A stretch of 64,000 nucleotides of DNA, from positions 102,402 to 166,401 of the forward strand of contig JAEPNY010000002.1 in NCBI GenBank assembly GCA_017643165.1, given 5' to 3'. Below, one piece after another: positions 13,728 through 27,377 of the stretch. The notes below the pieces were generated by a model that saw only the letters and a list, made by a program, of their open reading frames with translations, was not told the origin of the DNA and searched no databases. The position numbers and the translations under genes were made by a program. Every line of letters starts with the position of its first letter. Position 1 is the stretch's first letter. This DNA comes from Psychroserpens sp. GTDB taxonomy: Bacteria > Bacteroidota > Bacteroidia > Flavobacteriales > Flavobacteriaceae.

Positions 13728-15032
13728 TTAACTGACAGCTGCTTTATATGTTGTCAAACAACGTTCTCTTGCAAATTTATGGTCTACCATTGGCTGTGGG
13801 TAAGTTAATTCTTGATATTCAGGAACCCATTTTTTAATGTAGTCATGGTTTTTATCAAACTTTTGTATTTGCGAAGTGGGGTTGAATATTCGGAAATATG
13901 GTGCGGCATCAACACCAGAGCCCGCAACCCATTGCCAATTTCCAACATTACTCGCCATTTCATAGTCATGTAATTTTTCGGCAAAGTAAGCTTCACCCCA
14001 ACGCCAATCTATGAGTAAGTGTTTACATAAAAAACTACCCACGAGCATACGCACGCGATTGTGCATAAAGCCAGTTTCATTAAGTTCACGCATACCAGCG
14101 TCTACCAAAGGATAACCTGTGTTACCATCACACCATTTTTTAAAGTCTTCTTCATTATTTCGCCATTCGATACGATCATATTTTGCTTTAAACGATCGAT
14201 CTTTTGTATAGGGGAAGTGCCATAATATTTGCATAAAGAATTCGCGCCAAATTAACTCCTGCCAAAAGATCTCATTCTCTTCTGCAATCGCTTTTTTGAC
14301 CATTTGTCTGATGCTCACGGTTCCAAAGCGTAGGTGAGGACCTAATTTGGATGTAGCATCTAACGCAGGGAAATTGCGGGTTGCTTCGTACTCTTGGATC
14401 AACTGAGGTGTTACGGAGTAGTGAGCAATTTTTTGATCAGAGTGTTCAAAGCCAATATCTGACAAACTTAAATTTACTAAGTCATTGTCTTCAATGCAAT
14501 TCTGTAACAAGGCTTTTGAATCAAAATATGTTATATCTGAATCTTGAAACTTGGCTTTCCAGGAACGCATATAGGGCGTATAAACTACATATGGATTACC
14601 ATCTTTTTTTACGACTTCATTTTGCTCAAATATGACCTGGTCTTTATAGGTTTTGAATTCACAATTATGAGCGCTTAATAAGTTTTCAATAGCGGAGTCA
14701 CGCTCGTCAGCATAAGGTTCATAATCGCGATTTGTGTAAACAGATTGAATATTGTATTCAGAAAGCAGCTGTTCAAATATTTCAATAGGCTGTCCACTAT
14801 AAATAGCTAAACTTCGATTGTATTCTGACTTTAAGAGATTTTGCATCTCTTGCAGTATGTCATGAATAAAGTTTACGCGCGCATCTCTTTTTGGTAGTTT
14901 ATTTAATATTTCAGTGTCAAATATAAATATAGGCAGTACAGGTATACTACTATTTAATGCATGAAAAAGACCGACATTATCGTCGAGACGTAAGTCTCTT
15001 CTGAACCAAAATACCGCTATAGGTTGCTTCAT
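13728..15032 (-). CDS. phrB: Class I CPD photolyase (deoxyribodipyrimidine photo-lyase)
   Basis: 434 residues. It reverses cyclobutane pyrimidine dimers using reduced FAD and blue light. The N-terminal antenna domain starts VFWFRRDLRLDDN (8-20); the FAD-binding helical domain occupies about 200-430. The electron-transfer tryptophans are recognisable in KKWCDGNTGYP, IDWRWGEAYF and SNVGNWQWVAG, and the Asn of the last motif, typical of CPD photolyases, is kept. It is the last gene of the minus-strand light-response block, 5 bp after an SRPBCC gene, and is the most canonical of four photolyase/cryptochrome genes in 10 kb. Confidence 0.95.
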   Translation of the reverse strand: MKQPIAVFWFRRDLRLDDNVGLFHALNSSIPVLPIFIFDTEILNKLPKRDARVNFIHDILQEMQNLLKSEYNRSLAIYSGQPIEIFEQLLSEYNIQSVYTNRDYEPYADERDSAIENLLSAHNCEFKTYKDQVIFEQNEVVKKDGNPYVVYTPYMRSWKAKFQDSDITYFDSKALLQNCIEDNDLVNLSLSDIGFEHSDQKIAHYSVTPQLIQEYEATRNFPALDATSKLGPHLRFGTVSIRQMVKKAIAEENEIFWQELIWREFFMQILWHFPYTKDRSFKAKYDRIEWRNNEEDFKKWCDGNTGYPLVDAGMRELNETGFMHNRVRMLVGSFLCKHLLIDWRWGEAYFAEKLHDYEMASNVGNWQWVAGSGVDAAPYFRIFNPTSQIQKFDKNHDYIKKWVPEYQELTYPQPMVDHKFARERCLTTYKAAVS

Positions 15033-15037
15033 ATTTA

Positions 15038-15511
15038 TTAATTTTTAGTTGGCATTGCTCCAAAAAGGTTTTCTAATTTTTCAGTACGGTATTTGAAAAT
15101 TTCTTCCAGTTTTGGTTTAACCAGAATAGGGTGAAATAATTGTCCTAACCAACCTAATGGTACCTTGTAGTCGATGATATCTTCCATTTCAATACCGCCT
15201 TCAATTTCGTTTATAAAGTGCTTGTGATGCCAGAGTGAATAAGGACCAAAACGCTGCTCGTCCACGAAGTACTCACCTTCAACAACGTGGGTGATTTCGG
15301 TAACCCATTTGGTTTTTATTCCTAATAAAGGGGTAACAATATATTGAATAATTTGTCCTGCGAACATGGGTCTGTCAGCGCCAGACAAAATATTAAAACC
15401 CATGTAATCTGGTGTAATCGTTTTAAGGTTTCTTGGGTCTGACAGAAATGTCCAAGCTTCAGATTTAGATATTGGAAGTTGTTGTTTTTTGTGAAGTCGA
15501 TATATTTTCAT
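15038..15511 (-). CDS. SRPBCC family protein next to photolyase
   Basis: 157 residues from the ATG at 15511 (M-K-I-Y-R-L-H); an upstream in-frame ATG at 15529 would add six residues but has no family support. SRPBCC/polyketide-cyclase-like fold: PISKSEAWTFLSDPRNLKTI (about 15-34) opens the cavity and the C-terminal helix from about residue 125 closes it. Relatives are often annotated as cell division inhibitor SulA-like or ligand-binding SRPBCC proteins and are frequent neighbours of photolyases. It is 5 bp upstream of the photolyase start, so probably translated from the same mRNA. Ligand unknown. Confidence 0.85.
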   Translation of the reverse strand: MKIYRLHKKQQLPISKSEAWTFLSDPRNLKTITPDYMGFNILSGADRPMFAGQIIQYIVTPLLGIKTKWVTEITHVVEGEYFVDEQRFGPYSLWHHKHFINEIEGGIEMEDIIDYKVPLGWLGQLFHPILVKPKLEEIFKYRTEKLENLFGAMPTKN

Positions 15512-15568
15512 TGTGACTATAAAATACAATAGTTAGGCATGAGATATTGTACCCATACCAGAAATGTG

Positions 15569-15576
15569 CAAAGTTA
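15569..15576 (-). promoter_or_regulatory. Possible internal promoter for SRPBCC-photolyase
   Basis: TAACTTTG on the minus strand matches TAnnTTTG, 58 bp before the SRPBCC start. No TTG lies 19 nt upstream. It could give this pair its own transcription start in addition to read-through from the genes above. Confidence 0.4.
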
Positions 15577-15598
15577 GCTTCTAGAAATACTAGTTTAT

Positions 15599-15766
15599 CT
15601 ACTTTTGAAGTTCTTCTATTTGATCTAAGATACGCTGTGCTTCAGCATATTTTCTGTCACTTTCAGCTCTGTTAGTCGTAGATAAAGCATGCCAATCCTT
15701 CATGTAATTCTCATATTGTTTTTGCAGCCTATCTAACGCAGAGCGCTTTTTAAAAATTCCTAACAT
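15599..15766 (-). CDS. Small Lacal_2735-family protein
   Basis: A 55-residue protein, MLGIFKKRSALDRLQ at its N-terminus, then YENYMKDWHALSTTNR and a C-terminal amphipathic helix EAQRILDQIEELQK. The pattern GxFKK...L...Y...A..LS-TNR..SD.KYAEA is that of the small flavobacterial proteins annotated Lacal_2735 family, of unknown function. It is charged and helical with no membrane segment. It lies 5 bp downstream of the glutathione peroxidase gene, hence in the same operon. Confidence 0.82.
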   Translation of the reverse strand: MLGIFKKRSALDRLQKQYENYMKDWHALSTTNRAESDRKYAEAQRILDQIEELQK

Positions 15767-15771
15767 ATCGT

Positions 15772-16308
15772 TTATTTTAAGTGTTTTGTGATTTTTGAAT
15801 TTGTAGGTGACGTCATAGAATAGAAATAATCAATAAGGTCGCCTTCTGGGTTAACCAAGTATTTCTGAAAATTCCATTTCACACTGGAATTTTTTAAACC
15901 GTTCTTTTGTTTTTGAGTTAGCCATGCATATAATGGATGTTGCTGAGCGCCTTTGACATTGATTTTTTCTGTTATTGGAAATGTTACACCATAATTAACT
16001 TCACAGAAGGTTTCAATTGCATTTGCATCTCCTGGTTCTTGATTACCAAATTGATTACATGGCACTCCAATCACTGTGAGTTTCTCTTTAAATGTATCTG
16101 AAAGAAGTTGTAGCTCTTTATATTGCGGCGTAAATCCGCATTTAGATGCGACATTTACAAACAAAATGTACTTGCCTTCAAAACTTGATAGCTCAAAAGA
16201 TTTACCATTTAAAGCGTTTATTTGAATATCGTACAGATTAATCTTTTCTATAGATTCTGATGATTGTTTCGATAAAAGCGTACCTAAAAACATTTTGAAC
16301 GGATTCAT
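15772..16308 (-). CDS. Glutathione peroxidase (thiol type)
   Basis: 178 residues of thioredoxin fold, reducing hydroperoxides. The peroxidatic residue is cysteine, not selenocysteine: NVASKCGFT with C57; partner residues are Q86 in CNQFGNQEPG and the Trp of VKWNFQKYLV. The missing dimer loop is typical of monomeric bacterial GPx that use thioredoxin. The N-terminal 20 residues are mildly hydrophobic but do not form a clear signal. It is 2 bp from the SDR gene upstream and 5 bp from the small gene downstream, so its place in the photolyase block suggests removal of lipid peroxides formed by light. Confidence 0.93.
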   Translation of the reverse strand: MNPFKMFLGTLLSKQSSESIEKINLYDIQINALNGKSFELSSFEGKYILFVNVASKCGFTPQYKELQLLSDTFKEKLTVIGVPCNQFGNQEPGDANAIETFCEVNYGVTFPITEKINVKGAQQHPLYAWLTQKQKNGLKNSSVKWNFQKYLVNPEGDLIDYFYSMTSPTNSKITKHLK

Positions 16309-16310
16309 AA

Positions 16311-16994
16311 TTAAATTTTAAAACTTACAATCCCACAATCCATTTCAAATACTTGACCCGAAATTGATCCCGCTTTTTCAGATAGTAAAAACTCGGCCAT
16401 TCCAGCAACATCTTCGGGTTGTAAGAATTTCTTCATTGGATGACGTTCCTTAATGTTTTCTACCATTTTGTCATTACGAAGCAATTTTGAAGCCAAGTCA
16501 GTATTTGTTACAGTAGGTGCTATTGCATTTATTCTTAGCGTTGTGGCTAATTCAGCTCCTAAAGATTTTACTAAACCTTCTACTCCTGATTTGGCTGCTG
16601 CTACACTAGCGTGGAATGGCATCCCTAATTTTGCAGCGACAGTACTAAATAAAACAATGGAAGGATCTTCACTGTTTTTTATGATGTTTAAATACGTCTG
16701 GATGGCTTTTACAGCGCCTATGACATTAATCTCATAATCGTCGCGGAATTCGTCTAATTTAAAACGACCAATTGGCTTTAAATTAATACTTCCTGGACAG
16801 TAGACTAAACCGTCAGCTGCTTCAATTTCCGGTAGATCATCAGTAAGAATATCACAATCATAGTGTTCGAGATTAGGATGTGTTAGTTCAGGAGCATTTC
16901 TACTTATATTAATCACTTTTGAATGACTCAATAAACTATTTACGATGGCATTTCCAATGCCTCTGCTGCCACCTATTACTATGTATGTTTTCAT
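16311..16994 (-). CDS. SDR-family oxidoreductase lacking the catalytic tyrosine
   Basis: 227 residues, Rossmann fold. The NAD(P) loop GGSRGIGNA (8-16) and the NAG-like region YCPGS (about 65-69) are present, as is the active-site serine region VLFSTVAAK (114-122). The usual YxxxK reads V131-A-A-A-K135, so the catalytic Tyr is replaced by Val while Lys is kept (MPFHASVAAAKSGVEG region). Related proteins with HAS-[VI]-AAAK occur widely, so this looks like a natural subfamily, not damage. It may bind a dinucleotide without standard SDR chemistry. Co-transcribed with the glutathione peroxidase gene. Confidence 0.85.
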   Translation of the reverse strand: MKTYIVIGGSRGIGNAIVNSLLSHSKVINISRNAPELTHPNLEHYDCDILTDDLPEIEAADGLVYCPGSINLKPIGRFKLDEFRDDYEINVIGAVKAIQTYLNIIKNSEDPSIVLFSTVAAKLGMPFHASVAAAKSGVEGLVKSLGAELATTLRINAIAPTVTNTDLASKLLRNDKMVENIKERHPMKKFLQPEDVAGMAEFLLSEKAGSISGQVFEMDCGIVSFKI

Positions 16995-17078
16995 TACAAT
17001 TTGCTTTATAGTTAGACGAGCGCAACAGATAATTAATAGTTACCTATTACGCTCGGCTTGATATAGAGAGAGTAGGGC

Positions 17079-17303
17079 TTATACTGTTAATGGAGCACCT
17101 TTCAAACGTTTTTCGACTTTACGTTTAATAGCTGTCAAACGTTTCATGATATCCATAATGTTTTCATCTTTTCGTTCTTTATAGATTTGGTTTAAATCTA
17201 AAATTAACGCTTTCGCTTCACGAGAAATTTTCACACGATCACTAGTTGAAAGCGATCTCATTTTTCTCTTCTCAAATTCCAATGCTCTGTTTATTAATTC
17301 CAT
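17079..17303 (-). CDS. Conserved hypothetical, 74 residues, helical
   Basis: Highly charged, helix-rich protein (MELINRALEFEKRKMRSLST start, then NQIYKERKDENIMDIMKRL) with no membrane segment, signal peptide or recognisable motif. I recall similar short proteins beside folE in flavobacteria but cannot name the family. It starts 4 bp after the folE stop on the same strand, so it is probably translated from the same mRNA. An 84-bp spacer follows before the SDR gene; it holds inverted repeats CGAGCG/CGCTCG and TAATAG/CTATTA. Confidence 0.65.
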   Translation of the reverse strand: MELINRALEFEKRKMRSLSTSDRVKISREAKALILDLNQIYKERKDENIMDIMKRLTAIKRKVEKRLKGAPLTV

Positions 17304-17307
17304 GATT

Positions 17308-18000
17308 CTAATTATTTATGTAGTTGTGTAATTCTGTGATTTTTTCTGGAGTATTGAACTGTCCGCCATAATAGGTTGTCACAGTTGCAGATGTATCATC
17401 TTTTATTCCTCTAGAGGATACACACAAATGCTTTGCATCTATAATCACTGCGATATCTTCTGTGTCAAGAATCGCTTTCAATTCTTCAGCAATCTGGTTT
17501 GTTAAACGTTCCTGTACCTGTGGACGTTTAGCATAATATTGTACAATTCGATTTAATTTTGATAACCCGATCACTTTACCCGAAGAGATATAAGCGACAT
17601 GTGCTTTCCCAATGATTGGAACAAAGTGATGCTCGCAGTTGGAATAGAATGTTATATTCTTTTCAACCAACATTTGATTATACTGATACTTATTATCGAA
17701 TAAGGCCACCTTAGGTTTATTTGCAGGATTTAATCCGGAGAAAATTTCGTCAATATACATTTTAGCAACGCGCTGCGGTGTGCCTTTCAATGAATCATCG
17801 GTGAGGTCTAATCCCATCACATCCATGATTTCTTCAAAAAGAATTGCAATGCGCTCTTTTTTCTCTTGATCACTTAATTTGAAGGCATCTGATTTCATTG
17901 GTGTTTCTAAACCAGTGAATAGATGATCATCTCCTATTTCAGAAGTTGTAAATCCGTTTAACTCGTGACCGTTTTTAATTTTTAATGTGTCTGTACTCAT
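17308..18000 (-). CDS. folE: GTP cyclohydrolase I
   Basis: 230 residues. It converts GTP to dihydroneopterin triphosphate, the entry into folate and pterins. The zinc ligands C122 and H125 are in NCEHHFVPIIG, and C193 is in HLCVSSRGI; the substrate region GLSKLNRIVQYYAKRPQVQE (145-164) is intact. The N-terminal 40 residues precede the core. Its position within a photolyase block suggests a second role beyond general folate supply: photolyases and CRY-DASH use methenyltetrahydrofolate as antenna. It is 53 bp after the TIGR03643 gene and 4 bp before the 74-residue gene. Confidence 0.96.
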   Translation of the reverse strand: MSTDTLKIKNGHELNGFTTSEIGDDHLFTGLETPMKSDAFKLSDQEKKERIAILFEEIMDVMGLDLTDDSLKGTPQRVAKMYIDEIFSGLNPANKPKVALFDNKYQYNQMLVEKNITFYSNCEHHFVPIIGKAHVAYISSGKVIGLSKLNRIVQYYAKRPQVQERLTNQIAEELKAILDTEDIAVIIDAKHLCVSSRGIKDDTSATVTTYYGGQFNTPEKITELHNYINN

Positions 18001-18053
18001 CTGTTGTCTTTTTTATGTGCTGTCTCAAGGCTTGTATCCCTGAACAAAGCACG

Positions 18054-18326
18054 TTATCGTTTCGATATTTTGTTGTGGGTAATTTGTTTTTGTCTCGAAC
18101 ATTTAAATCTACCCTCTGAAAATGTTCTCAGTTTTTCATGTTTCGTTTTTCGACCTTGAACTCGTGCTCGCCACATTTTGAAACTTTTAGGTTTCATTTC
18201 ACGTCTCATAAGCTCAATAACTTCCTGTTCTTTTAAACCAAATTGAAACTCAATTGCTTCAAAAGTGGTTCGGTCTTCCCAGGCCATTTCTATTATTCTA
18301 TCAGTCGTTCTTTCGTCCAATTCCAT
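18054..18326 (-). CDS. TIGR03643 family protein
   Basis: 90 residues. It opens LDERTTDRIIEMAWEDRTTF and continues with IEFQFGLKEQEVIELMR and KSFKMWRARV, the pattern of TIGR03643. The N-terminal part looks like a helix-turn-helix (about 8-50: helix, FGL-EQEV turn, helix) and the C-terminus is basic. The family is repeatedly found beside cryptochromes and photolyases in diverse bacteria; its biochemical role is not known to me. It starts 3 bp after the upstream gene, so both are transcribed from the operator-bearing promoter at 18.78 kb. Confidence 0.88.
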   Translation of the reverse strand: MELDERTTDRIIEMAWEDRTTFEAIEFQFGLKEQEVIELMRREMKPKSFKMWRARVQGRKTKHEKLRTFSEGRFKCSRQKQITHNKISKR

Positions 18327-18329
18327 ACG

Positions 18330-18758
18330 TTATATGTACTGAAAATCATATTGTTCATCGTACTTAACCTTGGCATCTAGTAACTTTTTAAAGAAACTTT
18401 TATTCTCTTTAAATGTTTTAGTATTCTTAAAATGAACAAACTTTCCTTGCGCATGAATACTAGCACCATTCGTTTTATACAAGACTAACTGATAATACGG
18501 AATGATCCATGTGAAATTTTTTAATCCCTTGTTAATGTATAAAATGATTCCGCCAGATCTTAATTCGATATTTGCATAGTTAATATCCGACACATCATTT
18601 AAGTACTTTTCGAGATTAGGGCTTACCTGACCAATAATCATTCGTTTTGAACCAACACCTCCCATTTTCCAAGATTCCATGAACGAATAAGGCTTGCCAA
18701 CAAGATCATTAATCATGTGTTTATGTTCCTTATTTGTATGTGTAGAATCAAGTATCAT
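18330..18758 (-). CDS. Conserved hypothetical protein, first gene of operon 2
   Basis: 142 residues from the ATG at 18758. An in-frame TTG at 18776 is rejected because it lies within the -7 box. No signal peptide or membrane segment. It contains HKHMINDLVGKPYSF, IELRSGGIILYINKG and FTWIIPYYQLVLYKTNG, which suggest a beta-rich, PH-like fold, but this is only an impression. No function is assigned. As the first gene behind the shared operator it is likely to respond most strongly to the regulator, and it is followed closely by the TIGR03643 gene and folE. Confidence 0.75.
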   Translation of the reverse strand: MILDSTHTNKEHKHMINDLVGKPYSFMESWKMGGVGSKRMIIGQVSPNLEKYLNDVSDINYANIELRSGGIILYINKGLKNFTWIIPYYQLVLYKTNGASIHAQGKFVHFKNTKTFKENKSFFKKLLDAKVKYDEQYDFQYI

Positions 18759-18773
18759 ACCGTAATTTCTACT

Positions 18774-18837
18774 CAAATATAAAAAATGTTTAACCTTTAA
18801 CTGTATATCTTAAACAAAAATTAACATAATGCTATAG
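18774..18837 (-). promoter_or_regulatory. Operon 2 promoter with shared operator palindrome
   Basis: Minus-strand -7 box TATATTTG (18781-18774), 5 bp, then the palindromic operator: arms 18787-18795 (TGTTTAACC on the plus strand) and 18808-18816 (TCTTAAACA) separated by 12 bp. After 4 more bp comes TTAACATAATGCTATA (18821-18836). The same modules at the same spacing occur at 27316-27377 in front of the TetR-type gene (38 of 50 positions identical from 18787). I infer binding of the same repressor at both. Confidence 0.75.
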
Positions 18838-18878
18838 ATTTTAATTATAACACACGTAAGCATCAGTAATACAGGGGT

Positions 18879-20360
18879 TTAAGTTTGTTGGTTTGAGCCT
18901 CTTAGTGTGTGTTTATTAAGAATTCGGCGGCTTTCTTGTTTAACAGTTCTGTTTTTTCGAAGATTCCAGAGAATGTCACTCGCTTTCTTTCGGGTTTCAT
19001 CAATATCAACAATTGGCCAAGGATAATCTATACCAAGTTTAAAGTTGTAGAGCTGCTGTTCCATTTCTGTCATGAGGTAGGGTTCATGTACAAAAGCAGT
19101 TTCTAGATTGCGGAGTTCAGGAACCCATTTTTTAATAAATGTTCCGTCGGGATCATGCTCCATGCTATTCTTAATAGGATTATATATGCGAAGTAAATTA
19201 GTTCCTGTTTCACCAGCTTGCATTTGCAATTGCGGAAAATGAATTCCAGGTTCAAAATCCAGAAACATACGTGATAGGTGTTGTGAAGCGGCTTGCCACG
19301 GTTGCCATAAATTATGAGTGAAGAAAGAAACCGTAAGGGCACGCATTCTAAAGTTAAGGTACCCCGTTTCATTTAAACAACGCATCGCTGCATCGACTAA
19401 AGGGAAACCAGTTTGGCCGGTTCTCCACGCTTCTTGGTAAGTTTTGGAAATCTCTTTTTTCAACTTTCGGAACCCTTTATTAATGCTTTCCTGTTCCATT
19501 ATATGTTCCATTTCAAATTTCTGAATGAAATGCGATTGCCAACGTAATCTTGACATAAACGCTTCTAATGCCTTTTTATGCTCAGAAGTCTGTTTTAAAT
19601 GGAATGCTTTACGATACACTTCTCTTACGGATAAATTTCCCCAAGCAATGTAAGGCGACAATCGACTACAACTCATTCGTGCCAGCTCTGGCTTTGAAAT
19701 ATGGAACATATAATTCACATAGCGTTTTTGTAAGAATGAATTCAAATAACGTAAAGCATATGTTCTTCCGCCGTTTTGAAATGGGCTATCATCAGGAGTT
19801 TCTAATGAAGGGATGGTAAAGAACGATTCTAAAGCTTCTATTTCCTTAATGGTCAGCATTTGATTTTCGGATGGTTCAAATCTAAGAGGTTCAATTGCAA
19901 AATACGTGTTACAAGCTTCAGTCCACTTGGTGCGATCTTTTAGGCCGCGTTGTACACCATTATTGATATTTTCATGCCATTCAATTAGATTGTTCTTGCA
20001 GAATCGCTTAAATAATTTGTCGCGATTGTAAGTGACAAGTATTCCAGTTTCTTGATGCGAATAAATATCTTTAATATTATAAACTTCCATCAACTGATTA
20101 ATGGTGGCGATAATATCGGCTTCGATTGTTAGTACTTTCGAATTATAAGGTTCTAATCGCGCATTTAAATCTCTAATGGATTCTTTGATGAAATTCCAAT
20201 GACGTTGGCTGTAGTGATCATCTTCTAATAGGATATGTTCGAATGCATAGATTAATAATGTACGCTTTCCACTGGATAAGGCATTGAAAATAGCTTCGTT
20301 ATCTTCAAGTCTCAAATCTCTTTTTAACCAAACTACATTTATCTGTTCTCGCTTTATCAT
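18879..20360 (-). CDS. Divergent cryptochrome/photolyase family protein
   Basis: 493 residues. N-terminal photolyase domain opens VVWLKRDLRLEDNEAIF (9-25); the FAD domain contains SRLSPYIAWGNLSVREVY, TGQTGFPLVDAAMRCLNETG and LLRIYNPIKN. Relative to CPD photolyase the segment after DFEPGIHF reads PQLQMQAGETGTN, so the FAD-proximal Trp of the canonical triad is Leu and the conserved Asn is His by my alignment. Two outer triad positions (EAWRTGQ and QPWQAAS) retain Trp. The group is usually annotated as deoxyribodipyrimidine photo-lyase; a sensor or repair role is undecided. Its start overlaps the end of the PF04244 gene by 4 bp, and it closes operon 1. Confidence 0.88.
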   Translation of the reverse strand: MIKREQINVVWLKRDLRLEDNEAIFNALSSGKRTLLIYAFEHILLEDDHYSQRHWNFIKESIRDLNARLEPYNSKVLTIEADIIATINQLMEVYNIKDIYSHQETGILVTYNRDKLFKRFCKNNLIEWHENINNGVQRGLKDRTKWTEACNTYFAIEPLRFEPSENQMLTIKEIEALESFFTIPSLETPDDSPFQNGGRTYALRYLNSFLQKRYVNYMFHISKPELARMSCSRLSPYIAWGNLSVREVYRKAFHLKQTSEHKKALEAFMSRLRWQSHFIQKFEMEHIMEQESINKGFRKLKKEISKTYQEAWRTGQTGFPLVDAAMRCLNETGYLNFRMRALTVSFFTHNLWQPWQAASQHLSRMFLDFEPGIHFPQLQMQAGETGTNLLRIYNPIKNSMEHDPDGTFIKKWVPELRNLETAFVHEPYLMTEMEQQLYNFKLGIDYPWPIVDIDETRKKASDILWNLRKNRTVKQESRRILNKHTLRGSNQQT

Positions 20361-21832
20361 ACTAGTTGGGTCATAAATTTATTAGCATTCTCAAAATGTC
20401 CTTCTTTGGTTTCTGGTTTCATTTTGTCAAATGTTCTTATGAGCATCCCTAGTCTGGGATTAGATAAGAAGAATTCACGATGTTTATCCATGAAAGTCCA
20501 GAAAAGTCCGTCCCATGTAGCTTGCCAATCCCCCTTACTGTAATTACTCATTTTCATAATGTAATTACTACTACTAATATATGGTTTGGTCGACATGAGT
20601 CCGCCATCTGCAAATAGGCTCATACCATATACGTTTGGTACCATCACCCAATCATAGGCGTCAATGAAAAGCTCCATAAACCATTGATAAACGTCATCAG
20701 GATCAAATTCACAAAGCACCATAAAATTTCCGAGAATCATCAAGCGCTCAATATGATGTGCATAACCTGTTTTAAGTACCTTTTTTATGACATCATCGAT
20801 AGGTGTGATACCTGTTGTGCCGTCATAAAATGACTTCGGAATTTTTCTATTGAAATTCCAGAAGTTCTTCGTGCGTTCTTCCGAACCTTTAACTTCATAA
20901 ACTCCTCGAATAAACTCGCGCCAACCCAAAATTTGTCGCACAAATCCCTCAGTAGAGTTAAGCGGAACTTCATGAGCTATCGCGTAGTCTATAGCTGTCC
21001 TGATAACGTACATCGGGTCTAATAAGCCTACATTAATGAGCGGTGATAAGAGACTATGATTCAAAAAATGCTCTTCTTTAACGATAGCATCTTCATAGAT
21101 GCCGAACTCGTGGAAACGGAATTCAAAAAATTGTTGGAGCCAAGATTCGGCAGATTCGTGATCTATGGGATAACTCACAAAATCAGATAATTCGCCATAG
21201 TGCGTCTCAAAATTTTGCTGAACGTATGCTATAGCTTCTTTATGATATATGGATAATTCGGGGAATTGGATACTTGGTGGTGTTTTTCCTTTTGGGTATT
21301 TCTTTCTATTATCGGCATCATAGGTCCATTTACCACCTTCTGGACTACCATTAACCATTAATATGTTATGTGTTTTTCGTTGATCTTTATAAAAAGCGGT
21401 TTGAAAGAACTTCTTTTTAGAGGGTTTGAAAAAGGGTTGTAAGTCTTCTTTGTTGTTGATAAATAGTGGGTTTTCGTACCAAGTAAGAGCAACGCCTGCC
21501 GACACTGATTTGATATGTTTTTCTAACCAGTTGTCGGTAGGATCGATGATATGAAACGTTTGAACACCTTCATGAAATAGGTGTGGTATGAGTTGCCTAA
21601 CATCAGAAAGTGATGACGTCGAATCGATGTAAGTAACGGAATGGCCTTTGGATGCTAAATCATTAGCATACGATTTCATACTAGCACGATGAAAAGCGAT
21701 CTTTTGTTTGTGAAATTTATAATGTTTGAAGAATAAAAATTCTTCTACCAAGTAGATATCACAATTCAATTTTAATATTGGAGAATCATTAAAAAGTTGA
21801 TGTGGGAATACTATTGCTGCTTCTTTAGTCAT
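20357..21832 (-). CDS. PF04244 photolyase-related protein without Fe-S cysteines
   Basis: 491 residues of the FeS-BCP/PhrB-(6-4) photolyase lineage: it opens AIVFPHQLFNDSPIL, and has GYAHHIERLMILGNF, the YADAFEW-like FIDAYDWVMVPNVYGMSLFADGG and MSTKPYISSSNYI. Family members such as Agrobacterium PhrB bind a [4Fe-4S] cluster through four Cys. Here the positions read P344, S432 and D435 (MSNYSKGDW), and the loop holding the fourth Cys is deleted, so no cluster can form. FAD-binding parts appear intact. It lies between CRY-DASH (18-bp gap upstream) and the divergent cryptochrome (4-bp overlap). (6-4) repair is a family-based guess. Confidence 0.88.
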   Translation of the reverse strand: MTKEAAIVFPHQLFNDSPILKLNCDIYLVEEFLFFKHYKFHKQKIAFHRASMKSYANDLASKGHSVTYIDSTSSLSDVRQLIPHLFHEGVQTFHIIDPTDNWLEKHIKSVSAGVALTWYENPLFINNKEDLQPFFKPSKKKFFQTAFYKDQRKTHNILMVNGSPEGGKWTYDADNRKKYPKGKTPPSIQFPELSIYHKEAIAYVQQNFETHYGELSDFVSYPIDHESAESWLQQFFEFRFHEFGIYEDAIVKEEHFLNHSLLSPLINVGLLDPMYVIRTAIDYAIAHEVPLNSTEGFVRQILGWREFIRGVYEVKGSEERTKNFWNFNRKIPKSFYDGTTGITPIDDVIKKVLKTGYAHHIERLMILGNFMVLCEFDPDDVYQWFMELFIDAYDWVMVPNVYGMSLFADGGLMSTKPYISSSNYIMKMSNYSKGDWQATWDGLFWTFMDKHREFFLSNPRLGMLIRTFDKMKPETKEGHFENANKFMTQLV

Positions 21833-21850
21833 TTAAATTAAGTAGGTATA

Positions 21851-23161
21851 TTAAAATAAGGTTTCTTGTAGCCACATTCTTTGGAACTTACCATTCGCAT
21901 CATAACGTTCGGCTTGCAAATCAACGTTGAATTTTCGATCTCTAGGATCATTACCAACTCCAGCTACATACATCCAATTTCCATAGTTGCTATGGACATC
22001 ATAATCAATCAACATAGCTTCAAAATACGCTGCACCAATACGCCAGTCTACAAACAAGTCCTTGGCTAAAAATGAACCTACATTTTGACGTCCGCGATTA
22101 CTCATCCAGCCAGTTTTCTTTAATTCTATCATATTGGCATTAACAAAGTTGGAACGCGTTTCACCATTGATCCAACTATTTATAAGGCGTTCATCGCTCT
22201 TCCATTCATAATCTTTATGTAGAATACCACCAATTTTGAAAATGGCATTTTCATGTTTGAGTGAGACATATTTAAAATAGTCACGCCATATCAATTCGAA
22301 AATAAGCCAATACGTGGATTGATTTTTAAAAAAGTCGCGCTCAAATCGCTTAACTTGATGATAAATGGTTCGTGCGGAGATACAACCATTTGCTAGCCAT
22401 GGTGAAAACTTAGAACTGAAATCTTTACCGATTAATCCATTCCTAGTTTTTTTATACACACCCAACTTCTTTGTTTTGAAAAAGTAATCATTCAGACGTT
22501 CAAGTGCTTGCGATTCCCCACCTTTGAATGGGAACGCAGAATCTGGAATAGCTTCAAAATTTGAAAGCCCAAGATCTGAAAGATCTGGAATGGTGGTGTG
22601 GTTTTCAATCTCAAGAATTGCATTTGTAGTTGCAACAGTAATAGAAGGTCTAACAGCTCTGTATTTTTCTACTTTCTTTCTAAAAACTGTGAATACCTGG
22701 GGAATCTCTGAAATGGCCATTGGAATATCCTCTGGATGAAATAAAAATTGATCATAGATCTCATGATAAGCAATATGAGCTGGCAAATTGTTTTTCACCT
22801 TATCAAGTACATTAATTTCTTCGCTAGTCCATTCGTTTTGTAAATAGATATTTTTAACTGAATAGATAGCGGTCAATTTTTCTAGAACAACTTCGGGATA
22901 TTCATGAAACACGAATAATTCAACATTAAGTTCTTTTAAATTTTTCCGAAGTTCGTGCACGGATTCAATAATGAATTGTGCTCTAAACCGTTCTGTTTTC
23001 TTAAAACCATACTTGGTCATTTCGTAATGCCTTGGATCAAAACAATAACAGGCTATGATTGACTCACAATCTGCAATCGCTTTTTGTAATACGGCATTGT
23101 CTTGGACTCTTAGGTCATTTCTAAACCAGACTAATCCTATGTTGTTTTGTTTCTTCTGCAT
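21851..23161 (-). CDS. DASH-type cryptochrome
   Basis: 436 residues. The N-terminus [15 protein letters not shown] (8-22) and the C-terminal signature [15 protein letters not shown] are those of CRY-DASH, which repairs CPDs in single-stranded or looped DNA and binds FAD plus methenyltetrahydrofolate. Tryptophans in [20 protein letters not shown] and NWMYVAG conserve the electron chain. [18 protein letters not shown] marks the FAD pocket. Its first 25 bp overlap the DUF2256 gene in another frame, so the two are translationally coupled. folE in the sister operon could supply its folate antenna. Confidence 0.95.
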
Positions 23162-23280
23162 CGTTCACTACAATATTTTACGTGCTCCCAATTCTTTTCC
23201 CATTTTTTGCGCCAACTGAACGGAAGTCCACAGGTGACACATATTTTTTCTGGCAAATACAGCTTCTTATGTTTAGACAT
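23137..23280 (-). CDS. DUF2256 zinc-ribbon microprotein
   Basis: A 47-residue protein, [18 protein letters not shown] at the N-terminus and [13 protein letters not shown] at the end. Two Cys pairs (C-V-T-C near 14-17 and C-S-E-R-C near 37-41) and [10 protein letters not shown] between them match the DUF2256 family, a predicted zinc ribbon. It overlaps the SDR gene upstream by 8 bp and CRY-DASH downstream by 25 bp, so it is locked into operon 1. DUF2256 genes are recurrent neighbours of cryptochromes in unrelated bacteria, which makes an accessory role in photolyase function plausible but unproven. Confidence 0.9.
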
Positions 23281-24697
23281 CTACCAATTTGTTTATCATT
23301 CCTGAAAAAATAAAGCCGTGGAAGGGTAGAACAGCATACCAGTATAATCGTCCCCATAATCCGCGTGGTCTAAATGTCGCGGTCTGTTTTAATACGCCAT
23401 CTTCGATCTTAAATTCTAACCAGGCCTCACCAGGTAAGCGCATTTCGGCATACAACAACAGTTTTTGCTGTGTTTTACTGGCAAATATTACACGCCAAAA
23501 ATCCAAGGCATCACCTGCATCAAGATTGGTTGGACTTGTTCTACCTCTTCTTAAGCCAATACCACCAAAGAGTTTATCAATATATCCGCGTATTTTCCAA
23601 AGAAAAGTTCCGTAATACCAGCCTTGGTTGCCACCTATTCGCCAAATTTTTTCGATAGTTTTTTCAGCATCTCTTACGCGTCGTTCTTTTATGTCTTTAA
23701 AACATCCAAACTTAGGTACATTGATATAACGATGTAAGTTTTTCTTTAAACGTCCGCTACTTATCATTGAATCTTTCCAGCTAGACACAATACTGTTTTG
23801 CTCGATTTTTACAAAAGCCAATTCGACTGCTTGCTTATAGGTGAGTGGTTTTACATCTAATAATTCATTGATGTTACTAGGCTTGCCGATAATCTGAACG
23901 CCCATACTGTCTACTAAAGATACTGCAAGTTTGTATGAGGTTGATGTTACAAAATACAACCAATACGACGATAATCTCGGCGTCATTACAGGAACCGTTA
24001 AGATATAGCGTTTGAGCCCTCGGACTTGCGCAAATTGAAGGAGCATTTCTTTATAGGTCAAAACTTCCGGCCCAAAAACGTCATAAGATTGATTAAATGT
24101 TTCGGTTTTACCAGCACTTCGAGACAAAAAGTATAACACATCTCTTACAGATAAAGGTTGCGTCTTCGTATTTAACCATTTTGGTGCGATCATAAATGGT
24201 AATTTCTCAACCAAGTCTCTTATAATTTCAAACGACGAACTTCCCGATCCTACAATGATTCCTGCTTTAAAGATCGTTAGTGCATAAGCGTCAGATTTTA
24301 GAACCTCTTCAACATTTTTTCTAGACTGCAAATGCTTAGAAAGTTGATCCTCGTTGGTAATACCACTTAGGTAAATCACCTGTTTCACATTTGTTGTTTC
24401 GATATAATTCTTAAAGTTTTGAGCGCATTGGGCTTCTAAACTTTCGAAGTCTTTTGAAGAATTTGACATTGAGTGTATTAAATAATACGCGACATCAATG
24501 TCTTTTGGAATATTGTGAAAGGTATTCGGTTTTAAGAAATCAGCTTCTATGACGTCTATGAAATCATCATCCGAATAGCGTTTATCGGCTCGTAACTCAT
24601 CTCTAACGGCACAGGTGACATGATGGTGTTCATTGGCTAGCAACGGAATTAGTCGCTTTCCTATGTATCCAGTCGCTCCTGTCACGAGAATCTTCAT
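23273..24697 (-). CDS. SDR/NAD(P)-binding protein with C-terminal DUF2867
   Basis: 474 residues. Atypical SDR with the NAD(P) loop [14 protein letters not shown] (about 4-17) and VIYLSGI region (about 107-113); the last 150 residues ([14 protein letters not shown] through [20 protein letters not shown]) match the SRPBCC-like DUF2867 domain, with a hydrophobic stretch near the C-terminus that could associate with membrane. Such fusions are commonly near photolyases in marine bacteria; the substrate is unknown. It follows the flavin reductase gene by 8 bp and overlaps DUF2256 by 8 bp. Confidence 0.88.
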
Positions 24698-24705
24698 GCG
24701 AGTAT

Positions 24706-25320
24706 TTATTTAGGTCTTTGGTAGCCAAAACGTGTTTTTAATTCTGGTATCGCATAACCGTCTAAGCCATTGATTGCCGATACTTTAGCTTTTGATAAGT
24801 TAATGAATCCGTCGTCTTCTAACAAATCTTCATCAACATATAATCCTGTAATCTTTCCTATTAATAGGATAGTGTTATTTGCCTTAATCTCATATTCTTC
24901 GACATATTCCATTGCTAATTGAACGGGAGCTCCTTTTACAAATGGTGCTTGAAAATCATTTTTATATTCTGGATGCAGATTGGTTTTGTCAAATTCTGAA
25001 ATATTGGCGTCATACTTTGCCGATGTATGATGTGCATCTTCTAGTATTGCTTCGTGAATATGGTTGATCGTATATACGCCTGTGGTTTTGATATTTTCAT
25101 AGGTGTTTCTTAAAACGGTTGTTGGTCTTAGGAAAAAACCGAGCATTGGCGGATTAGAACCAATATGTGTTACTGAACTGAATACTGCAACATTTTCAAT
25201 GCCTTCTTTAGATACTGAACCCAATAAATTAGCCGACTTATAACCAGAGCAACTGTTGATTAAGTTGATGCGATAGATGTGATGGAAATTGTCGAGCTGT
25301 TCATTGCTGATATAGGTCAT
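24706..25320 (-). CDS. Flavin reductase-like (FMN split-barrel) protein
   Basis: 204 residues of the flavin reductase domain family PF01613. The core SCSGYKSANLLGSVSKEG, GSNPPMLGFFLRP and TTGVYTINHI lines the FMN pocket; WYS-type tails are absent. Members bind FMN and reduce flavins or act as partner of monooxygenases. Being between the UbiB-like kinase (stop/start share one base) and the SDR gene in the same operon as three flavoproteins, it could keep photolyase flavin reduced in the dark, but this is inference. Confidence 0.88.
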   Translation of the reverse strand: MTYISNEQLDNFHHIYRINLINSCSGYKSANLLGSVSKEGIENVAVFSSVTHIGSNPPMLGFFLRPTTVLRNTYENIKTTGVYTINHIHEAILEDAHHTSAKYDANISEFDKTNLHPEYKNDFQAPFVKGAPVQLAMEYVEEYEIKANNTILLIGKITGLYVDEDLLEDDGFINLSKAKVSAINGLDGYAIPELKTRFGYQRPK

Positions 25321-26630
25321 TATAACGTGTTGAAATTATTGATCTTAATATCTTGTGCTTTTAAGTCGAACATCAAATTGTATAATCCGAAGAAGGTTCT
25401 ATTCATGTAGATGAAGTGCTTAGATCCACGATTACCATTCATCTTTCGCAATTCAGTATTCTTAGAGTATTTTTCGCTTAGCTCACCAATCTTTCCGAAG
25501 AAACTGTTGTCTGAAAAGTCAAAAGTTTCTGCATGAAAAGGTTGTGTAAACAAACTTAACATCTCGTGGAAAAGCTCAGTGAAGAATTCCAATTCTTTCG
25601 GACTATCATCTGCCCTTAAAATCTCCAATTCATAAAGTTTCTGAACGAAATACTCACGATTCTCTATACTTTCTTTCCGTGCAAGCTCGAAGTACGGTAC
25701 ATAGAACTCGTCTGGAATGGTTTTCATACATCCAAAATCTAATGCGATTAGTTGGCCTTCCTTAGATATGAGGAAATTTCCAGGATGAGGATCTGCATGT
25801 ACTTTTTTGAGTTTATGGATTTGGAACATGTAGAAATCCCAAAGGGCCTGACCTAATTGATTTGCAAATGCTTGATTCGTATTGTGCGCCGCAAACTCAG
25901 AAAGATGTTCTCCGTGCATGTAGTCCATTGTGATGATGCGTTCGGACGACATCTCTTCATAATATTGAGGAAACAAAAGATTCGGGATGTGAGCGCATTT
26001 ATGAGCAATTTCTTTACTTTGCTCGACTTCCAGAATGTAATTTGTTTCCTCAATTAATTTACCTTCAACTTCTTTAAAGTACTTGTCAGAGTCTTTTCCT
26101 TTAATGTTGAACATGCTCATGGCAATTGGTTTGACCATGGCTAGATCTGAAGCGATACTTTCAGCAACTCCTGGATATTGGATTTTCACAGCAAGTTTTT
26201 TCCCGTTTTTCTCTGCAACATGGACTTGTCCAATGCTAGCAGCGTTCACAGAAGTTGCGTTGAAGGTATCATATATGTCGCTCGGCAATTTTTCGAAATA
26301 TTTTTTAAATGTCTTCATCACTAAAGGCGGTGATAAAGGTGGAACTGAAAACTGCGCTAGCGAGAACTTTTCTACGTAGGCTTGAGGCAAAATACTTTTT
26401 TCCATGCTTAGCATCTGAGCAACTTTGAGTGCGCTACCTTTCAATTGCTTTAGTCCATCATAAATGTCATCAGCATTATTTTGGTTAAGACGTTCTTTAG
26501 CTTCCGACTCAGATTTTGTAAGCTTATCTCCATAATATTTCAAATAGTTAACACCAACCTTAGCTCCTGTAGAAACTAGCTTAGTGGCTCTTTGAATTTT
26601 AGAAGTGGGTATTTTGTCTATGGTTTTCAT
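25320..26630 (-). CDS. ABC1/UbiB-family atypical kinase
   Basis: 436 residues. Hallmarks of the UbiB (ADCK/COQ8) family: the K-x-x-Q N-terminal motif in LKGSALKVAQMLS (about 63-75), the nucleotide lysine in KKLAVKIQYPG (about 144-154), the catalytic HADPHPGNFL and LDFG. Members are ATPases or kinases acting in isoprenoid-lipid metabolism such as quinone synthesis. No membrane helix is obvious. The gene is 10 bp after the TetR-type regulator and shares one base with the flavin reductase gene, so it is in operon 1 rather than a quinone operon. Confidence 0.93.
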   Translation of the reverse strand: MKTIDKIPTSKIQRATKLVSTGAKVGVNYLKYYGDKLTKSESEAKERLNQNNADDIYDGLKQLKGSALKVAQMLSMEKSILPQAYVEKFSLAQFSVPPLSPPLVMKTFKKYFEKLPSDIYDTFNATSVNAASIGQVHVAEKNGKKLAVKIQYPGVAESIASDLAMVKPIAMSMFNIKGKDSDKYFKEVEGKLIEETNYILEVEQSKEIAHKCAHIPNLLFPQYYEEMSSERIITMDYMHGEHLSEFAAHNTNQAFANQLGQALWDFYMFQIHKLKKVHADPHPGNFLISKEGQLIALDFGCMKTIPDEFYVPYFELARKESIENREYFVQKLYELEILRADDSPKELEFFTELFHEMLSLFTQPFHAETFDFSDNSFFGKIGELSEKYSKNTELRKMNGNRGSKHFIYMNRTFFGLYNLMFDLKAQDIKINNFNTL

Positions 26631-26640
26631 TCAGGGCAAA

Positions 26641-27297
26641 TTAATTCATGTGCATTTTTTCTTTGATCAAAAACTTTCCTAGATCGATCAAACTTCTAAC
26701 AGGTGCTACATTTAGAACATCGAAACTCGTATTTACAGATTTCTCAATAAAGATGTCTGTTTTTTCAAAACCTTTCGATGTATCATCCATCCAGAACTTC
26801 ATTGTTAATAACAATTGAAGCCAAGCGGTCTCTTTTAAACCACGACGTTGAATGCGATCAATTTGTTCCTGTTTAATATCAATTAATTCAATACCTAGGT
26901 GTTCAATATAAGTAGTGAAGGCATGCTTTAATTCGGCTAAAGATGCTAGGCCTTTCATACTATTTTTGTGTTTTTCTAAGGCATACTTAACATAACTTCT
27001 ATTGGCTGTCAAGTTTTCAAAAAAGGTAAAATAGAAGCTCAGCAATTTATTACGTGCATCAAAGGAATTGTAATCTTCACTTTTCTCCAATACATCAATG
27101 CTGTTTTGAAAAAATGCTTTGAACACGTGTTTTTCAATTGCTTCAAAAGAACCAAAGAATTCATAAAACTTTTGTTCTTCGAAGTTATTCGCTTTGGCGA
27201 AGGCATACACGGTCTTTGGCTGCGTATTATGCTCGAGCACATAATCCATGTAAAAACTGATTATGTCGTCGCTCTTGATATTTTTTTTCTTTGCCAT
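26641..27297 (-). CDS. TetR-type transcriptional regulator, head of operon 1
   Basis: 218 residues from the ATG at 27297 (M-A-K-K-K-N-I-K-S-D-D); in-frame ATGs at 27306 and 27303 are possible, while a TTG at 27318 lies in the -7 box and is excluded. The N-terminal helix-turn-helix is recognisable as IISFYMDYVLEHN, VYAFAKANNFEEQKFYEFFGS (about 13-55), followed by a helical ligand-binding C-terminal domain. It is autogenously positioned: a perfect palindrome lies 4 bp from its -7 box. The same element precedes operon 2. I infer a repressor of both operons; the inducing signal (light product, peroxide, porphyrin, lipid) is unknown. Confidence 0.85.
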   Translation of the reverse strand: MAKKKNIKSDDIISFYMDYVLEHNTQPKTVYAFAKANNFEEQKFYEFFGSFEAIEKHVFKAFFQNSIDVLEKSEDYNSFDARNKLLSFYFTFFENLTANRSYVKYALEKHKNSMKGLASLAELKHAFTTYIEHLGIELIDIKQEQIDRIQRRGLKETAWLQLLLTMKFWMDDTSKGFEKTDIFIEKSVNTSFDVLNVAPVRSLIDLGKFLIKEKMHMN

Positions 27298-27315
27298 GTT
27301 CATCATTTTATAACA

Positions 27316-27377
27316 CAAAGATATAAATGTTTAACCTTTTATAAAAATGGTTAAACAAAATTTAACATGATGCTATG
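27316..27377 (-). promoter_or_regulatory. Operon 1 promoter with perfect palindromic operator
   Basis: Minus-strand -7 box TATCTTTG (27323-27316), 4 bp, then TGTTTAACC (27328-27336 on plus strand), 12 bp, GGTTAAACA (27349-27357): a perfect 9+9 inverted repeat of 30 bp covering the -33 region, where a repressor would block RNA polymerase. A further half-site-like block TTAACATGATGCTATG (27362-27377) follows at a spacing of 4 bp. It is shared with the element at 18774-18837. Confidence 0.8.

Follow-up and report, generated by a model that had tools for sequence, protein, structure and literature searches.

A photolyase-rich gene cluster made of two operons

The window analyzed here is a stretch of 64,000 nucleotides (positions 102,402 to 166,401, forward strand, of contig JAEPNY010000002.1) from Psychroserpens sp. 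of the Flavobacteriaceae, assembly GCA_017643165.1. Our subject is a cluster of 17 minus-strand genes at 13728-27318 of this window and the operator that heads it. An earlier sequence-only reading had described one uninterrupted run with mostly tight junctions, holding four photolyase/cryptochrome genes and forming a co-regulated light-damage set. From the open reading frame (ORF) list and family searches, the 17 genes were recovered, with an overlap or a gap of less than 10 bp at 10 of the 16 junctions (counted from gene coordinates), and the four photolyase/cryptochrome genes proved to be all of the PF03441 matches in the 3.14-Mb genome. The light-damage character of the set was likewise supported. 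FolE and the flavin reductase, in which that reading saw suppliers of photolyase cofactors, may have this role. The single run did not stand: a 102-bp gap (18777-18878) with a promoter separates an operon of eight genes (operon 1), which begins with a TetR-fold gene, from an operon of nine (operon 2), which begins with a conserved gene that we call orf148 (Table 1).

Each operon is preceded by an exact copy of a two-fold symmetric inverted repeat, TTGTTTAA-N16-TTAAACA, which was first read by eye upstream in a set of 80 loci and is called the operator here. A putative -7 element follows each copy. The operators of relatives usually carry TAnnTTT(G/A), which we take to be the Bacteroidetes -7 element, 5 bp downstream; TAnnTTT followed at a spacing of 5 bp in 109 promoters and 4 bp in 11, giving 120 of 135. 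At loci where a merR gene adjoins crtI, TAnnTTTG lies inside the operator in 21 of the 30 sites located at most 12 bp before an ATG (counted over loci L260-L309, where six genomes occur twice). Both placements, after the operator or inside it, would suit a repressor that blocks RNA polymerase.

Operators are sometimes paired, about 40-45 or 61-64 bp apart (genomes G488, G515, G380, G482, G044, G019, G532, G600, and G457; loci L312, L324, and L321), and several of these pairs lie near merR or proteorhodopsin. Such pairs may point to a higher-order repressor complex.

Conservation of the cluster and its operator

The family sample, which the named relatives lead us to take as Flavobacteriaceae, was a fixed draw of 120 genomes from 119 genera. 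PF17931, the family of the TetR-fold protein, was found in 76 of these (one copy each), PF04244 in 56, PF03109 in 87, and PF03441 in 106. We assembled 155 family loci, 75 from the other PF17931 genomes of the sample (at most 20 kb around PF17931) and 80 from Psychroserpens, Lacinutrix, Winogradskyella, Algibacter, Polaribacter, Tenacibaculum, and others; 11 of the 155 are shorter than 12 kb, so that a gene missing from one of them may simply have been cut off. Once overlapping matches were resolved, 91 loci carried three or more of nine marker genes, and 84 of these have all their detected cluster genes on one strand in the order seen in the window (the exceptions are L061, L064, L078, L107, L176, L178, and L188). 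Single cluster genes are missing in many of the 91. The sequence-only reading had staked its case on a nonrandom gene order in relatives, and that is what these loci display.

The operator was sought upstream of the TetR-fold gene on both strands, in up to 350 bp of upstream sequence plus 60 bp of the gene. It occurred with at most one mismatch of 15 at 140 of 155 loci: 89/94 with at least three markers, 13/15 with one or two, and 38/46 with none. The denominator of 94 applies when overlaps are left unresolved in the 80-locus set, and 10 of the 46 "lone" loci still have a flavin reductase or DUF2867 gene. In shuffled sequence, the best matches had about 4.3 to 4.5 mismatches. Because the operator was read from the 80-locus set, the count of 140 is not independent there; the genome-wide, MerR, and class-level tests below are. 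Of the 76 loci that have orf148, 67 likewise showed an operator with zero or one mismatch in the 250 bp preceding this gene. The co-regulation proposed earlier thus gains support, since the same operator heads both operons and one-mismatch copies stand at carotenoid and proteorhodopsin genes elsewhere in the genome.

The operator goes with a CarH-like MerR gene

A 299-amino-acid MerR protein is encoded next to crtI, outside the window (G000:C3:452104-453000, equal to L258:6102-7001), and its gene is the only regulator-like one recognized in the crt locus. The protein has a MerR helix-turn-helix (HTH) domain (PF13411, E 3e-16) and a B12-binding domain (PF02607, E 3e-8). Its best NCBIfam match is CarH (NF052513, E 5e-21, 75 bits), and the top PDB matches of its profile are 3whp, a "probable transcriptional regulator," and CarH itself (5c8d). 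Residues W143, E153, E191, H193, and G196 are invariant in 20 of 20 aligned orthologs, and H154 is conserved in at least 90%. The orthologs therefore carry the Wx9EH and ExHxxG signatures; a Wx9EH motif and a B12-ligand motif (E/DxHxxG) define CarH homologues, according to the available text of PMC8156234. On its sequence, the protein is a CarH-like homologue, not an NF052513 equivalog. Since a B12-binding mutase is encoded in the genome, the host probably has access to the cofactor.

A search for this MerR protein at E <= 1e-20 matched 96 of the 120 family genomes, 87 of them strongly (best E <= 4.4e-67) and 9 weakly (3.9e-46 to 1e-40). The exact operator was present in 85 of 87 genomes with a strong match versus 4 of 33 without (Fisher p 3e-21); the four are G007, G025, and G028, each with a weak match, and G079, which is 81% complete. 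At the searched cut itself the counts were 88/96 versus 1/24. Among the 44 genomes that lack the TetR-fold gene, the association held, with exact operators in 18 of 19 with strong MerR versus 1 of 25 without. Outside the family, 286 genomes of the class gave 132/175 with a MerR match versus 7/111 without (p 1e-33); here as in the family, kinship among genomes means that the Fisher p-values overstate independence. The same operator read backwards, used as a control pattern, had 15 matches in 11 of the 120 family genomes, versus operators in 89.

Position points the same way. Among genomes that lack the TetR-fold gene, 11 of 19 had an operator with at most one mismatch next to merR/crtI, as did 16 of 25 that possess the gene; seven control patterns gave no such site. 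Among the matches listed, an exact operator lay less than 500 bp from merR in 21 of 30 nonfamily genomes. Where the TetR-fold gene is present, 62 of 67 genomes with strong MerR retain the operator before it, compared with 3 of 8 that have no strong MerR.

Operator sites at proteorhodopsin, carotenoid, and other genes

A whole-genome scan returned seven distinct exact operators, two in the cluster and five elsewhere, near genes for a fasciclin protein, an amidohydrolase, a beta-lactamase-fold protein, a 77-amino-acid ORF, and a contig-end ORF. Another five sites differ from the operator at one position. One lies between the genes for proteorhodopsin (PF01036) and the retinal-forming dioxygenase blh (PF15461), and another directly before crtI of a crtI-crtB-crtZ-crtY operon, in which crtZ had no Pfam match and presumably deserves its name by position. 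Of the other three, one separates katG from a DUF2007 gene, one precedes a TetR/ABC operon, and one precedes a GLPGLI gene. For these last three sites and the five exact ones outside the cluster, the observation covers the source genome alone. Two-mismatch sites numbered 82, versus 59 control matches (both strands); such sites are unreliable singly, and one before merR itself was not counted.

Proteorhodopsin (PF01036) occurs in 26 of the 120 family genomes, and 24 of its loci were scanned, leaving out G045 (below cut-off) and G104 (broken by a stop). An operator with at most one mismatch stood just upstream in 11 of the 19 genomes with strong MerR, exactly matching in G056, and a two-mismatch site in two more. 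The five loci without strong MerR included a one-mismatch site in G079 and a two-mismatch site in G055. Over the same 85 kb, the combined yield of four control patterns was 8 sites of two or fewer mismatches.

The TetR/ABC operon site (G000:C2:698156) lies upstream of a transporter-like operon with a true TetR gene (L255:6228-6935, PF00440); it may be there by chance.

A candidate B12-dependent light regulon and its alternatives

These data suggest, with a probability that we put at roughly 0.78, that the cluster forms the DNA-repair branch of a light regulon under a CarH-like, B12-binding MerR repressor. The evidence in favor consists of the exact operator and -7 element at both operons, the one-mismatch sites at crtI, proteorhodopsin/blh, and katG, the co-occurrence of operator and MerR whether or not the TetR-like gene is present, and the CarH residues of the MerR protein. 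From these sequence features we infer that MerR binds the operator, that light releases it, and that it represses rather than activates. In the dark, the repressor with bound adenosylcobalamin would occupy TTGTTTAA-N16-TTAAACA sites and hold down the promoters of the two photolyase operons, crtIBZY, and proteorhodopsin/blh. Light would break the Co-C bond, the repressor would leave, and all targets would be expressed together. Judged by family, the photolyases would repair UV lesions, glutathione peroxidase and KatG would detoxify peroxides, carotenoids would quench singlet oxygen, and proteorhodopsin would harvest light. The TetR-fold/UbiB-like pair at the head of operon 1 would be an output of the regulon, perhaps in prenyl-lipid handling.

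Several observations weigh against this proposal. The operator is an inverted repeat, unlike the 11-bp direct repeats in tandem to which the CarH proteins of Thermus and Bacillus bind according to the accessible portion of PMC8156234; the two share only a TnnACA core. The longer 11-bp consensus was not kept as a description of the operator: only that core fits, and the A that the consensus calls for stands at just 54 of 135 right half-sites, with T at 76 of 135 left ones. CarH operators are reported to be very plastic in the part of PMC9304148 at hand. At 75 bits, the MerR protein misses the NF052513 equivalog cut-off of 400 bits. The split into strong and weak MerR matches was set after the gap from 4.4e-67 to 3.9e-46 had been seen. 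Sites are also absent where the proposal would place them: no operator with at most one mismatch was found at 17 of 44 merR/crtI loci or at 8 of the 19 proteorhodopsin loci with strong MerR (two of these 8 have the two-mismatch sites), 43 of 175 nonfamily MerR genomes lack an exact operator, and the operator before the TetR-fold gene is missing in 5 of 67 strong-MerR genomes and present in 3 of 8 others.

Other readings of the operator have to be set against these data. The sequence-only reading assigned control to a TetR-type regulator in place of sigma-E or LitR, and the TetR-fold protein is indeed encoded by the first gene of operon 1, has the TetR fold, matches FadR by profile (E 7e-4), and has the operator upstream of its gene at 140 of 155 loci. 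That it is the regulator and the operator its own site is nevertheless very unlikely. The operator persists in genomes without the TetR-fold gene when MerR is there, often beside merR/crtI. Of the 8 genomes that have the TetR-fold gene but no strong MerR, 5 lack the operator before that gene. The protein also has a degenerate, net-acidic HTH region in which TetR_N (PF00440) found no match at E <= 1. TetR autoregulation through the operator was rejected on these grounds, and control is better sought in the LitR/CarH-type MerR gene. Inheritance of the gene set as a cluster, with no shared regulation, could by itself yield the conserved order between relatives; it appears extremely unlikely, given the same operator at both operons and at the unlinked crt and proteorhodopsin loci and the rarity of the backwards control pattern.

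Two further readings leave the operator with a regulatory role. Co-occurrence cannot separate merR from genes inherited alongside it, and the 7 operator-bearing genomes among 111 nonfamily ones without a MerR match count in favor of a different DNA-binding protein that travels with merR/crt and recognizes the operator. This would also weigh against the CarH-like proposal. We consider it quite unlikely, because merR is the sole regulator-like gene recognized in the crt locus and so often has an exact operator within 500 bp. Alternatively, MerR might bind the operator independently of B12 or of light, like CarA, or might depend on a second protein as photoreceptor, in the way that class II LitR works with a LOV protein; the passages seen of PMC8156234 and PMC9758184 describe such CarA-like and LOV-assisted LitR proteins. 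The invariance of W-x9-E and ExHxxG in all 20 aligned MerR orthologs speaks against that arrangement, which we regard as unlikely.

The CarH-like proposal names a candidate regulator, defines an operator, and lists the targets. If it is true, light use and UV repair would be tied to vitamin B12, which many marine bacteria have to import. A wider picture, advanced tentatively and at somewhat less than even odds, is that across the class, presumably Bacteroidia, a single B12 light switch coordinates the capture of solar energy by proteorhodopsin and retinal with protective pigments, DNA photorepair, and a prenyl-lipid module of the COQ8/COQ9 type, and that bacteria throughout the phylum have in the TetR-fold/UbiB pair a counterpart of COQ9/COQ8 that works without ubiquinone. 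The supply of B12 would then decide when phototrophy and repair are switched on in marine Bacteroidota.

Comparison with known light-responsive systems

The excerpts of the cited papers that were available place the proposed regulon beside several known systems. Class I CarH/LitR regulons of Myxococcus, Thermus, and Bacillus megaterium share the MerR HTH and B12 domains, Wx9EH, the His ligand, the position beside crt genes, and an operator that overlaps the promoter (PMC8156234, PMC9304148). In contrast, the operator here is not a tandem of 11-bp direct repeats but an inverted repeat around a middle fixed at 16 bp, and the targets include proteorhodopsin and four photolyase/cryptochrome genes. 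In Pseudomonas putida and P. mendocina, class II LitR governs a light response in which phrB, cryB, and folE are induced and SDR (short-chain dehydrogenase/reductase) genes lie beside them (PMC9758184). The photolyase/cryptochrome and folE genes with adjacent SDR genes are thus common to both, whereas class II LitR acts with a short LOV photoreceptor, and the available text mentions neither proteorhodopsin nor a UbiB/TetR-fold pair. In the blue-light response of Vibrio cholerae, a MerR-like gene sits in a photolyase operon and photolyase genes are induced by light, but the ChrR/sigma-E pathway governs most of the response, as far as the excerpt of PMC5241685 goes.

Within the same bacterial group, a 2018 study described a gene-proximity cluster of photolyase and photolyase-related genes that is associated with proteorhodopsin, being enriched in Flavobacteriia that bear it; in the text available, the word "MerR" does not occur and no operator is given (PMC5932025). 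A MerR gene is present in a flavobacterial crt cluster, according to the portion seen of PMC11855829. Among the literature matches listed, which mostly leave subscription journals outside their coverage, no paper linked CarH/LitR to proteorhodopsin or to this cluster, and the operator, the MerR link, and the joint proteorhodopsin, carotenoid, four-photolyase/cryptochrome, and TetR-fold/UbiB regulon were not met in print. Because the CarH operators in the cited papers, as far as these were available, are direct repeats, we class the regulon as a variant of known CarH/LitR regulons, set apart by its inverted operator.

The TetR-fold/UbiB-like pair

The product of the first gene of operon 1 has a TetR-type fold that may also be COQ9-like, COQ9 structures having turned up in the fold analysis. 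Residues 9-50, the HTH region, have a mean net charge of -3.3, versus +2 in the single true TetR protein from this genome that served for comparison, and conservation is mixed (0.58 over residues 9-50, 0.69 over 150-210, and 0.50 over 51-83). The protein is not the likely regulator of the two operons. In the profile search against the PDB, FadR, a TetR regulator, ranked first and no COQ9 entry appeared at E <= 1. COQ9 membership was rejected, as neither cut-off was reached (PF08511, 13.2 bits versus 20.5; TIGR02396, 18.1 versus 74.55). With these cut-offs missed and COQ9 absent from the PDB search, we say only that the protein may work like COQ9.

Its gene adjoins the UbiB-like gene in all family loci (75/75 and 80/80). 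Beyond the family, 20 loci drawn from the rest of the order, class, and phylum all have the kinase gene downstream of the TetR-fold gene and on its strand; the two are immediate neighbors in 18 and stand 0.7 to 0.8 kb apart in L207 and L213. The TetR-fold protein is probably a partner of the UbiB-like kinase. Mitochondrial COQ8 and COQ9 are likewise an ABC1 kinase and a TetR-fold protein in one pathway; here, in contrast, the pair is bacterial and COQ9 family cut-offs are not reached. Bacteria of this group probably use menaquinone. These results suggest that what is annotated in many Bacteroidota as a transcriptional regulator gene may in fact encode the partner of a UbiB-type kinase.

Photolyase-type genes lie near the nonfamily pair in L200, L201, L204, L207, L211, and L213. 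In the 37 family-sample loci with none of the nine markers, the pair is flanked upstream, on the other strand, by members of one gene cluster in 27 and downstream by another in 28; the former look like htpG and the latter like a ketoacyl-ACP synthase III (FabH) gene, names that we assume. In another family, many PF17931 matches lie about 1.2 to 1.9 kb from a contig start (G226, G256, G260, G145, G180, G165, G351, G319, and G219), as if the pair adjoined an assembly-breaking repeat.

Genes and features of the cluster

The features of the cluster are collected in Table 1. The DUF2256 and Lacal_2735 ORFs (47 and 55 amino acids) are below the 60-amino-acid cut-off of the ORF list and were found separately. 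Three cluster genes, starting at 15038, 17079, and 18330, had no Pfam match; the latter two, the 74-amino-acid gene and orf148, are recurrent cluster members without any family match. An Rfam scan of the window returned two tRNAs only.

Table 1. Operators, putative promoter elements, and genes of the two operons, in window coordinates
Feature	Position	Strand	Evidence and remarks
Operator of operon 1	27328..27358	-	exact TTGTTTAA-N16-TTAAACA
Putative -7 element, operon 1	27316..27323	-	TATCTTTG, 4 bp after operator
TetR-fold protein with degenerate HTH (COQ9L)	26641..27297	-	first gene of operon 1; PF17931 E 1e-46
UbiB/COQ8-like ABC1 atypical kinase	25320..26630	-	PF03109 E 6e-53; PDB matches include COQ8A, COQ8B
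Flavin reductase-like protein	24706..25320	-	PF01613
NAD(P)-binding and DUF2867 protein	23273..24697	-	PF13460, PF11066
DUF2256 small protein	23137..23280	-	PF10013
CRY-DASH	21851..23161	-	TIGR02765 510 bits, above cut-off of 317; PDB 1np7 E 5e-118
PF04244 photolyase-related protein, lacking presumed [4Fe-4S] cysteines	20357..21832	-	PF04244; PDB matches PhrB/CryPro
Divergent cryptochrome/photolyase	18879..20360	-	last gene of operon 1; PF03441 E 1e-62; below all NCBIfam cut-offs
Operator of operon 2	18787..18817	-	exact TTGTTTAA-N16-TTAAACA
Putative -7 element, operon 2	18774..18781	-	TATATTTG, 5 bp after operator
orf148, conserved protein	18330..18758	-	first gene of operon 2; no Pfam match; in 76/155 loci; start taken as ATG after promoter (ORF list: TTG at 18776)
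TIGR03643/DUF2805 protein	18054..18326	-	TIGR03643 above cut-off
folE, GTP cyclohydrolase I	17308..18000	-	NF006824 282 bits, cut-off 202
74-amino-acid conserved protein	17079..17303	-	no family match; recurs in relatives
SDR oxidoreductase	16311..16994	-	PF13561
Glutathione peroxidase	15772..16308	-	PF00255
Lacal_2735 family protein	15599..15766	-	NF033487 above cut-off
Conserved protein, presumably SRPBCC-like	15038..15529	-	no family match; recurs in relatives
Class I-type cyclobutane pyrimidine dimer photolyase	13728..15032	-	last gene of operon 2; PF00875 and PF03441; best PDB matches are class I-type photolyases

The best-scoring NCBIfam families of the photolyase that ends operon 2, TIGR03556 and PRK10674, were both below their cut-offs. 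In the PF04244 alignment, the four columns that we take to hold the [4Fe-4S] cysteines, as in PhrB, lack cysteine in the window's protein and 23 others of the 61 aligned, and have it in 37; the window's protein thus falls outside the FeS-BCP/CryPro group as defined by four cysteines. The twelve least similar proteins among the matches listed, 31 to 34% identical to the window's, are all of the cysteine type. The cysteine and cysteine-free subfamilies seem to swap in one cluster position.

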